In this document: positions 26,431-27,737 of the stretch, one piece after another
Numbering within the stretch: position 1 is the stretch's first letter
Layout: each line of letters opens with the position of its first letter
Origin: Falsirhodobacter algicola
GTDB lineage: Bacteria; Pseudomonadota; Alphaproteobacteria; Rhodobacterales; Rhodobacteraceae
Assembly (NCBI RefSeq): GCF_018279165.1
Contig: NZ_CP047289.1
Span: 2,053,001 to 2,117,000 of the forward strand
Direction: 5' to 3'
DNA length: 64,000 nucleotides
Translations under genes and position numbers: made by a program
Notes under the pieces: model-generated
The model's input: the letters and a program-made list of their open reading frames with translations, nothing else
Told to the model about the DNA's origin: nothing
Databases searched by the model: none

Positions 26431-27228
26431 ATGACTCGGGATGCCTGCGATCTGGCCAGCGACTTGGATTGGGAAACCGCTGCGGCGATGCTCGCCTGGC
26501 AGTATGATCTGGGTGCGACCGAGGGCATCGGCGATGTCCCCCTCAACCGCTACGAGCTGGAGGCCGCGGCCCCGAAACCCGCGCCGTCCGCCGCCCATGC
26601 CCCACCCGCGGCCCCGCCCGCACCTGCCGCCGATCCCGCCGCCGAGGCGCGCGCCATCGCCGCCGCCGCCCCCGATCTGGCCGCGCTGCGCGATGCCATG
26701 GCCGGGTTCACGCTGTGTGAATTGAAGCGCGGGGCGCGCAACACCGTCTTTGCCGACGGGCGGGCCGGCGCGCGCGTCATGATCATCGGCGAGGCGCCGG
26801 GCCGGAACGAGGATATCGCGGGCAAGCCCTTCGTCGGGCAGGCGGGCCAATTCCTCGACCGGATGATGGCGGCGATCGGTCTGTCGCGGGATGCCGAGGA
26901 TGCGGCCCACGGTTTCTATGTCACGAATGTGCTGCCGTGGCGCCCGCCCTCCGACCGCGATCCGACGGCCGAGGAGGTGGCGCTGATGCTGCCCTTCCTC
27001 GAACGTCATGTCGCGTTGGCCCAGCCGGACCTGCTGGTCGTTCTTGGAAACACCGCCGCGCGGGCCGTTCTGGGGCAGGGCGGCATCACGCGGCTGCGCG
27101 GCACTTGGGGGCAGGGCTTCGGACGGCCCGTGATGCCGATGTGCCACCCCGCCCATCTGCTGCGCCATCCCCTCGCCAAGCGCGAGGCGTGGTCGGATCT
27201 TCTGCAAATCAAGTCGAGGTTGAGATGA
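26431..27228 (+). CDS. Uracil-DNA glycosylase, family 4-like without Fe-S cysteines
   Basis: A 265-residue uracil-DNA glycosylase that would remove uracil from DNA. Motif A is GEAPGRNED (120-128) with PFVGQAG (133-139), and motif B is HPAHLLR (239-245), as in family 4. Residues 45-75 are an Ala/Pro linker. Family 4 enzymes bind a 4Fe-4S cluster through four cysteines. Here only C96 is kept; the partner positions are F93, the PW at 169-170 and the LM near 185. It overlaps moaB as ATGA. Confidence 0.85.
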   Translation: MTRDACDLASDLDWETAAAMLAWQYDLGATEGIGDVPLNRYELEAAAPKPAPSAAHAPPAAPPAPAADPAAEARAIAAAAPDLAALRDAMAGFTLCELKRGARNTVFADGRAGARVMIIGEAPGRNEDIAGKPFVGQAGQFLDRMMAAIGLSRDAEDAAHGFYVTNVLPWRPPSDRDPTAEEVALMLPFLERHVALAQPDLLVVLGNTAARAVLGQGGITRLRGTWGQGFGRPVMPMCHPAHLLRHPLAKREAWSDLLQIKSRLR

Positions 27229-27737
27229 GCGAATTCAAACCGGTGCGCATTGCCGTGCTGAGCGTGTCGGACACCCGCACGCTGGACACCGACAAGTCCG
27301 GCAAGGTGCTGGCCGAACGCATCGAAGGCGCCGGCCATATTCTGGTGGAGCGGGTGATGGTCCGCGACGACCGCGCCGTCATCGCCGAGCATCTGCGCCG
27401 CTGGGCCGACGATCCGCAGGTGGATGTCGTCATCTCCACCGGCGGGACCGGGCTGACGGGCCGGGATGTGACCGTGGAGGCCCACCGCGATGTCTATGAA
27501 AAGGAGATCGAGGCCTTTGCGTCGATCTTCGCCATGGTGTCGATGCGGACGGTCGGCACCTCGGCGATCCAGAGCCGCGCGACGGGCGGGGTGCGCAACG
27601 GCACCTATATGTTCGCGCTGCCCGGAAGCTCCGGCGCGTGCCGCGACGGCTGGGACGAAATCCTGCGCCACCAACTCGATTCCACCAACGGGCCGTGCAA
27701 CCTCGTGGAGATCATGCCCCGCCTGACCGAACGCTGA
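27225..27737 (+). CDS. moaB: Molybdenum cofactor biosynthesis protein B
   Basis: A 170-residue MogA/MoaB-fold protein that adenylylates molybdopterin before metal insertion. The substrate loop STGGTGLTGRDVT is present near residue 67, with LSVSDTRTLDTDKSG at the N-terminus and FALPGSSGACRDGW near the end. The start ATG overlaps the glycosylase stop (ATGA), so the two are translationally coupled although functionally unrelated. Confidence 0.92.
   Translation: MSEFKPVRIAVLSVSDTRTLDTDKSGKVLAERIEGAGHILVERVMVRDDRAVIAEHLRRWADDPQVDVVISTGGTGLTGRDVTVEAHRDVYEKEIEAFASIFAMVSMRTVGTSAIQSRATGGVRNGTYMFALPGSSGACRDGWDEILRHQLDSTNGPCNLVEIMPRLTER

Follow-up and report, generated by a model that had tools for sequence, protein, structure and literature searches.

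A predicted cluster-free branch of family-4 uracil-DNA glycosylases in the Alphaproteobacteria, with a conserved N-terminal peptide and a possible link to the replisome

We analyzed a window of 64,000 nucleotides from the genome of Falsirhodobacter algicola, which contains a gene for a protein of the uracil-DNA glycosylase (UDG) superfamily followed directly by a moaB-type gene (Table 1). The UDG scores 164.4 bits against the curated family-4 model TIGR00758 (UDG_fam4), well over its cut-off of 125.3, and 127.9 bits against PF03167 in Pfam. The motif definitions applied here for family 4 and for UdgX are those given in excerpts of PMC10359453; by these definitions, the protein carries the family-4 motif A, GE(A/G)PG, as GEAPG at residues 120 to 124 and the HPA of motif B at residues 239 to 241. 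A script check found E121, F134, N166, H239, and R245 all present. These five residues are invariant across an 86-row alignment, as are R171, P172, and P173, which form the RPP motif after Trp170. By alignment, E121, F134, N166, and H239 are the counterparts of the residues to which the sections consulted of PMC10776899 assign the uracil chemistry of UdgX. The initial annotation, made from the sequence alone, had described motifs A and B as family-4-like, and this description stands, with the catalytic residues intact. The moaB-type gene scores 222.3 bits against TIGR02667, just under the cut-off of 222.4, and the arrangement of the two genes suggests that they are likely cotranscribed.

Table 1. 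Features of the UDG gene and its downstream neighbor, in window coordinates
Feature	Position	Strand	Basis
CDS, cluster-free family-4-type uracil-DNA glycosylase, 265 aa, ATG start	26431..27228	+	UDG_fam4 164.4 bits, PF03167 127.9 bits
Conserved N-terminal peptide, residues 19-42 (AMLAWQYDLGATEGIGDVPLNRYE), proposed docking peptide	26485..26556	+	Peptide profile; helix 14-26 in model
Ala/Pro-rich linker, residues 43-76	26557..26658	+	Sequence; little secondary structure in the model ahead of helix 69-79
UDG catalytic domain, residues 82-265	26674..27225	+	Superposition on 1ui0 (residues 82..265), Z 27.5, rmsd 1.3
Cluster positions 1 and 2: Phe93 (Cys lost), Cys96 (kept)	26707..26718	+	HMMER alignment to 1ui0, profile column
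Motif A GEAPG, residues 120-124	26788..26802	+	Sequence; alignment to 1ui0; G120, E121, P123, G124 invariant
Pro169-Trp170: Trp replaces cluster Cys 3, Pro replaces preceding Lys	26935..26940	+	Alignment, profile column
Met186 replaces cluster Cys 4	26986..26988	+	Profile column; L185 adjoins
Motif B HPAHLLR, residues 239-245	27145..27165	+	Sequence; alignment to 1ui0; H239, R245 invariant
moaB-type gene, overlaps UDG stop by 4 bases (ATGA)	27225..27737	+	TIGR02667 222.3 bits

Of the four cysteines that bind the [4Fe-4S] cluster of family 4, the window protein retains one, C96. In a HMMER alignment to the Thermus UDGa 1ui0, F93 and C96 lie opposite the first two cluster cysteines, and P169 and W170 lie opposite the Lys and Cys of KCRPP; the profile column places M186 at the fourth position, next to L185. 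Cysteines occur in the whole protein only at positions 6, 96, and 238 (script check). C238 directly precedes the His of motif B and the cluster region has no further Cys; other cysteines are thereby ruled out as cluster ligands, since C6 and C238 are the only ones besides C96. The initial annotation had likewise found only C96 kept, with Phe93, the Pro-Trp pair at 169-170, and Leu/Met near 185 at the other positions, and these assignments were reproduced. An alignment placing other cysteines at the cluster positions was looked for and not found. Having one cluster cysteine of four, the protein was filed as a member of a cluster-free variant branch rather than as a canonical family-4 enzyme.

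An AlphaFold model of the window protein, built on the 86-row alignment, reached a mean pLDDT of 92.6, with block means of 95 to 98 over the domain. VIA-align superimposed this predicted model on 1ui0 with a Z score of 27.5 and an rmsd of 1.3 over 178 residues, as expected for a family-4 fold, followed by the Sulfolobus and Thermotoga family-4 enzymes and UdgX at Z scores of about 25 to 27. A comparison of a predicted structure with those of family 4 had been proposed in the initial annotation, which reasoned that the enzyme must fold without a cluster; the model agrees with that reasoning in that a family-4 fold is predicted although the cluster cysteines are gone, the sequence pointing to the absence of iron. 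Compared with the family-4 UDGa enzymes (Thermus 1ui0, Thermotoga 1vk2, and Sulfolobus 4zbx; Z 26.7 to 27.5 for the predicted model), the window protein shares the fold, GEAPG, HPA, the RPP loop, and the uracil-pocket residues. It differs in having F93, W170, and M186 in place of three cluster cysteines, in the replacement of the Lys before Cys 3, and in the addition of an N-terminal peptide and linker.

Two other members of the superfamily were considered as possible identities. UdgX (Mycobacterium smegmatis 6ail) belongs to the same superfamily branch and aligns with the window model at a Z score of about 26, and TIGR03914 also matches the window protein, at 116.8 bits, so that an enzyme of UdgX type, or one acting on another substrate, might be considered in place of a uracil glycosylase. 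However, this score is under the TIGR03914 cut-off of 189.95 bits, which rules out UdgX identity; the KRRIH loop is absent, and motif A reads GEAPG instead of GEQPG. Moreover, the UdgX-type protein of this genome is another gene. The genome (99.9% complete) encodes two PF03167 proteins, the window protein and a UdgX-type fusion, whose UdgX-type domain (L002, G000:C1:2273186-2273662) forms the last part of a long open frame outside the window and is the sole other PF03167 match; it has GEQPG, KRRIH, and CxxC, none of which is found in the window protein. We therefore give a UdgX-type or other-substrate enzyme almost no credence. BdiUng of Bradyrhizobium diazoefficiens (5gn2) is an alphaproteobacterial UDG of the same superfamily, but it aligned with the window protein at a Z score of only 14.8 and 17% identity, which rules it out as the same enzyme. 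As an already described family with which a cluster-free enzyme might have been grouped, it is thus not a match. Bradyrhizobium loci L155 and L165 also carry the UDG type of the window, beside the BdiUng of that genus.

The cluster-free state is class-wide, a point that the initial annotation lacked. A match was present in 81 of 81 genomes from the order of the window (its own genome included; all have one family label). We searched 240 genomes of the class with the alphaproteobacterial profile A1, and 227 matched at an E value of 1e-12 or below, 215 of them stronger than 1e-50 and the other 12 weaker than 1e-43. Residue states were read in 171 alphaproteobacterial orthologs (170 distinct sequences), a count from which the window itself, two four-Cys proteins (L211 of G201 and L214 of G090), and two UdgX-type proteins (L226 and L227) were left out. 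None of the 171 had all four cysteines (CCCC), and one only (L212) had three. Position 1 was F in 131 and Y in 20; position 2 was C in 143; position 3 was W in 162, Y in 4, and F in 3; and position 4 was C in 81, M in 51, and L in 14, mostly Met in the family of the window. A residue pattern found class-wide, together with matches in all 81 genomes of the order, is not due to chance. In the other proteobacterial sets, CCCC was found in 42 of 42 and in 36 of 40 proteins; the 40 also included 3 with CCSC and one, L269, that was incompletely readable. The three proteins with Ser at cluster position 3 are L252, L254, and L257, family-4 UDGs of the class of genome G348 (see below), whose CCSC state seems to have arisen independently of the loss in the Alphaproteobacteria.

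In a tree of 89 rows, a single branch (99/85) split 53 alphaproteobacterial rows from 33 four-Cys rows, and this alphaproteobacterial branch was present in 200 of 200 bootstrap trees examined, with the bootstrap not fully settled. A phylogeny had been suggested in the initial annotation, which considered a separate cluster-free branch; the single clade and the absence of four-Cys proteins among the 171 orthologs bear this out. One cluster loss, after which Cys 2 and in many cases Cys 4 persisted, is the simplest reading of the residue states and the tree. The two four-Cys proteins of the class, L211 and L214, lack the N-terminal extension and come from small genomes. They grouped with the Thermus row, the sole row from outside the phylum, and for this reason were left out of the ortholog count and were probably acquired.

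How might a family-4 enzyme work without its cluster? According to excerpts of PMC5295032, the cluster stabilizes a loop, and disruption of its cysteines costs family-4 enzymes only part of their activity, as it likewise does in a family-5 enzyme. This result is a precedent for a cluster that is nonessential to the chemistry. We consider it quite likely that the window protein belongs to an alphaproteobacterial branch of family-4 UDGs that kept the fold and the catalytic residues and whose [4Fe-4S] cluster was lost in a single event close to the root of the class, with side chains now holding the loop. Trp170 and Phe93 would occupy the space left by the cluster and take over its part in anchoring the RPP loop. 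Uracil would be excised by the usual family-4 chemistry, in which the main chain of E121 and H239 would act at the base, N166 would read the uracil, and F134 would stack on it.

The cysteines that linger are unexplained by a plain hydrophobic plug and count against this explanation: 143 of 171 orthologs retain Cys96 and 81 of 171 have a position-4 Cys, although two cysteines can hardly carry a cluster. Their retention would fit a window enzyme that was not cluster-free in practice and in which Cys96, together with other ligands or within a dimer, bound a metal or a different cluster. Against such binding, the window protein has one Cys in the cluster region, positions 1 and 3 are aromatic in most orthologs (F/Y in 151 of 171 and W/Y/F in 169 of 171, respectively), and even the position-2 Cys is absent in 28 of 171. 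Metal binding by the window enzyme is therefore, in our judgment, very improbable.

The genomic distribution of UDGs bears on the cellular role of the enzyme. A profile search of its own genome (99.9% complete) with TIGR00628 found no family-1 Ung. Across the class, Ung was over the cut-off in 14 of 240 genomes: 6 of the 215 with a strong A1 match versus 8 of the 25 without (Fisher 8.9e-6, with kinship ignored). The split at an E value of 1e-50 behind this count was set at a gap after the gap had been seen, and the 215 genomes are defined by profile match, two of them (G090 and G201) carrying the four-Cys type. A 2007 survey of Caulobacter repair genes, in the portion of PMC1839093 consulted, lists four COG1573 UDGs, none resembling Escherichia coli Ung. 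As Ung is rare and concentrated where a strong A1 match is absent, the window-type protein is probably the housekeeping enzyme, that is, the main uracil-DNA glycosylase of the cell.

In 12 orthologs, motif A or B is altered (L207, L210, L216 to L221, L223 to L225, and L229); for example, L207 has DRPAASDE, and L216 has CNVPDSNE together with LDP. Five of the 12 genomes concerned carry Ung (G041, G168, G062, G068, and G030). Judging from their motifs, these orthologs have presumably lost activity.

The N terminus, which the initial annotation missed, is the more informative part of the protein. Most alphaproteobacterial orthologs have there a peptide of the form ALLxWQxExGADEAIxDxPxDRY, set on an Ala/Pro-rich linker upstream of the domain. 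The window peptide scored 54.5 bits against the alphaproteobacterial peptide profile when the window was left out of training and 58.0 when it was included, and none of 929 control N termini reached its score. Among 76 class-wide loci, 54 had a peptide score of at least 4, where the top control, with a near-identical profile, reached 3.8; the other 22 scored below 4, some perhaps because of a cut frame. A Pfam search with the first 90 residues of the window protein alone returned one chance-level match (E 4.5), and a search of the PDB with the N-terminal stretch of L081 returned none. The peptide is kept in 10 of the 12 altered-motif orthologs, at scores that none of the 929 controls matched. 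Retention of a tether while the active site decays suggests that the alphaproteobacterial protein presumably has a second, noncatalytic job. The N-terminal peptide may tether the enzyme to a partner, most plausibly the replisome. We favor the replisome because family-4 enzymes of another class have a clamp-loader peptide of the psi type at the same place.

We take the N-terminal peptide of these non-alphaproteobacterial family-4 UDGs to resemble the N-terminal peptide of psi that binds the DnaX clamp-loader collar. The class in question, that of genome G348, we infer to be the Gammaproteobacteria in the broad sense, betaproteobacteria included, because G348 has a classical psi and the psi family matches only E. 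coli among 14 control genomes. A psi peptide profile was built only from 12 psi proteins (PF03603 matches) and judged against the 99% line of 929 control N termini. Of 40 family-4 UDGs from this class, 38 were above that line, with a best score of 37.3 against 8.7 for the best control; each of the 40 comes from a genome with a different family label, and they comprise 38 of the 106 over-cut-off genomes plus two below the cut-off, mostly top-scoring ones. In the first non-alphaproteobacterial set, in which many rows come from family label f162, 6 of 41 family-4 UDGs were above the line.

When profiles were compared with column-shuffled versions, 0 of 2,000 shuffles scored as high as the comparison with psi for the second set (the class of G348), and 0 of 2,000 for the first. 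For the alphaproteobacterial peptide, the corresponding numbers were 105 of 2,000 versus psi, 67 of 2,000 versus the first set, and 452 of 2,000 versus the second. This comparison leans toward a match, since rows were chosen for it and positioned in it on a pattern that includes the hydrophobic-Gly core, which retained 121 of 140 rows for the alphaproteobacterial peptide, 25 of 42 for the first set, and 36 of 40 for the second; the profile test that gave 38 of 40 involved no such selection. On the psi position-specific scoring matrix (PSSM), the alphaproteobacterial peptide had a median of -6.9 against a control median of -7.3, and the alphaproteobacterial PSSM detected 0 of 40 peptides from the UDGs of the class of G348. 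PF03603 was not among the Pfam matches of the window protein at an E value of 0.001 or below. On these sequence comparisons, the presence of the psi peptide on family-4 UDGs of the class of G348 is well supported, and the psi likeness of the window's own peptide is only suggested. Some non-alphaproteobacterial family-4 proteins keep the four cysteines and have an altered motif A (L271, L272, L273, L274, and L193 to L198); among them, the psi-type peptide is clear in L271, L273, and L274 and weaker in L272.

The likeness of psi to family-4 UDGs extends to the domain. With the peptide removed, 12 psi rows matched the non-alphaproteobacterial UDG profile (42 rows) in hhalign at a P value of 1.5e-11 (probability 97.4) and the alphaproteobacterial UDG profile (155 rows) at 3.9e-9 (probability 96%), as expected of homologous domains. 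Nine more classical psi rows alone gave 5e-6 against the non-alphaproteobacterial and 0.0014 (probability 17%) against the alphaproteobacterial profile. Among the controls, 0 of 150 column shuffles scored as high, and reversed alignments scored 10 to 18 versus 28 to 74. The family-4 HMM matched the psi proteins L233 at 2.4e-10 and L232 at 5e-9 (in a set of 12) and the classical rows weakly. L232, which is over the PF03603 cut-off, matched PF03167 at 19.0 bits (E 0.0016), below the cut-off of 24.3, and a stretch resembling UDG motif B, HPSHLL...KRHAW, survives in it. By eye, K250 and W254 at the C terminus of the UDG correspond to the AKRxLW of psi. L232, L233, and L234 are psi (PF03603) proteins that still resemble family-4 UDGs.

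Structural comparison offered support for this kinship that is only suggestive, and the weakness of the structural match speaks for convergence, a common short peptide combined with a generic alpha/beta fold. The model of L232 is of low confidence (pLDDT 68). VIA ranked family-4 UDGs first for it (Z 6.6 and 6.4) and also returned psi chains 3sxu_B (6.3) and 1em8_B (6.1), with KaiB and MxiA tied at 6.2. Foldseek found nothing for this model at an E value of 0.001 or below, and thioredoxin-like chains made up most of its top 50. A phmmer search of the PDB with L232 gave four matches, at E values of 0.35 or worse, none of them UDG or psi, and no psi chain was among the best 50 structural matches of the window model. 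The 17% probability of the nine classical rows against the alphaproteobacterial profile also fits convergence. Against convergence stand the match of the 12 peptide-free psi rows to the non-alphaproteobacterial profile, unmatched by any of the 150 shuffles, the PF03167 match of a protein over the PF03603 cut-off, and the recovery of L233 and L232 by the family-4 HMM; we regard convergence as quite improbable. Homology of psi to family-4 UDGs, with a peptide common to psi and the UDGs of the class of G348, is well supported at the sequence level, and psi looks like a decayed family-4 UDG. It is shorter than the UDG and lacks UDG motifs; the window protein, for its part, has no PF03603 match, and its peptide is not significantly psi-like.

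The genomes that carry psi add to this picture. Within the class of G348, family-4 UDG was over the cut-off in 0 of 7 psi (PF03603) genomes versus 106 of 136 others (Fisher 4.9e-5), a contrast that is confounded by relatedness and in which two of the seven absences are inferred from missing matched rows and two others have subthreshold matches. Among the titles and abstract openings listed in a literature search, with earlier superfamily surveys outside its scope, we found neither a link between psi and UDG nor a description of a cluster-free family-4 branch. None of the papers on HolD or the bacterial clamp loader among the matches listed mentioned "uracil-DNA glycosylase" in the parts of text covered.

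A 2012 review, as excerpted (PMC3290774), places chi in alpha-, beta-, and gammaproteobacteria and psi only in gammaproteobacteria, describes domain III of tau as bound by the N terminus of psi, and raises the question of whether psi is too divergent to be recognized or chi serves other purposes. The parts consulted of PMC3197488 describe the psi N terminus as disordered, conserved, and required for clamp-loader binding, and report chi without a recognizable psi in several genomes and a Pseudomonas psi that is twice as large. In our data, chi was found in 210 of 240 genomes of the class of the window, its own included; psi was found in 7 of 120 genomes searched, none of the 7 in this class. 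The two genomes with four-Cys enzymes, G201 and G090, have no chi match (inferred for G201 from absence among matched rows).

A link between peptide and chi was not firmly upheld. Over 76 loci, a rank test of peptide against chi gave a P value of 0.078 (23 without chi, 53 with) and, for genomes at least 95% complete, 0.014 (13 without, 38 with); Fisher tests gave 0.27 and 0.16. Four loci that were truncated, UdgX-type, or interrupted (L222, L226, L227, and L228) had been dropped, and the chi-less list includes 10 genomes inferred from absence among matched rows. Among the 12 altered-motif orthologs, the two that lack the peptide (L223 and L229) come from genomes with no chi match, and chi is present in the genomes of the ten that have it. 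Chi is still present in 8 of the 13 genomes without an A1 match (e.g., G058, G083, and G180; hand count), which speaks against the UDG as the only partner of chi.

The weakness of these tests speaks for a rival account, in which the window protein is a plain, free-standing housekeeping UDG that lost its cluster neutrally and whose peptide has a target unconnected with the clamp loader, such as SSB or the sliding clamp, or serves only in folding. The intact active site and the retained family fold fit this account, as does an alphaproteobacterial peptide that is not significantly psi-like. It leaves unexplained why 10 altered-motif orthologs keep a peptide that a pure repair enzyme would not need and why related family-4 enzymes from another class bear a psi peptide in the corresponding position. 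We treat the plain housekeeping UDG as a serious possibility, if one that falls short of an even chance. The joint reading of our results includes an enzyme that gave up its iron-sulfur cluster in the alphaproteobacterial line and catalytic motifs that, in a subset of lineages (several with a family-1 Ung), decayed while the docking peptide stayed; taken as a whole, we hold this joint reading tentatively, at slightly under even confidence.

Vaccinia virus supplies an earlier example of a UDG drawn into a replicase, since its UDG is a subunit of the processivity factor (excerpts of PMC1936997). On the sequence comparisons presented here, such family-4 UDGs would be candidate counterparts of the psi subunit that alpha- and betaproteobacteria seem to be "missing." A whole class appears to carry out uracil repair with a family-4 enzyme that lacks the cluster regarded as defining the family and has aromatic residues at two of the cluster positions. 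Natural enzymes with and without the cluster make the role of the cluster testable by comparison. A psi slot held by a family-4 UDG is offered as a concrete answer to the question of chi without psi.
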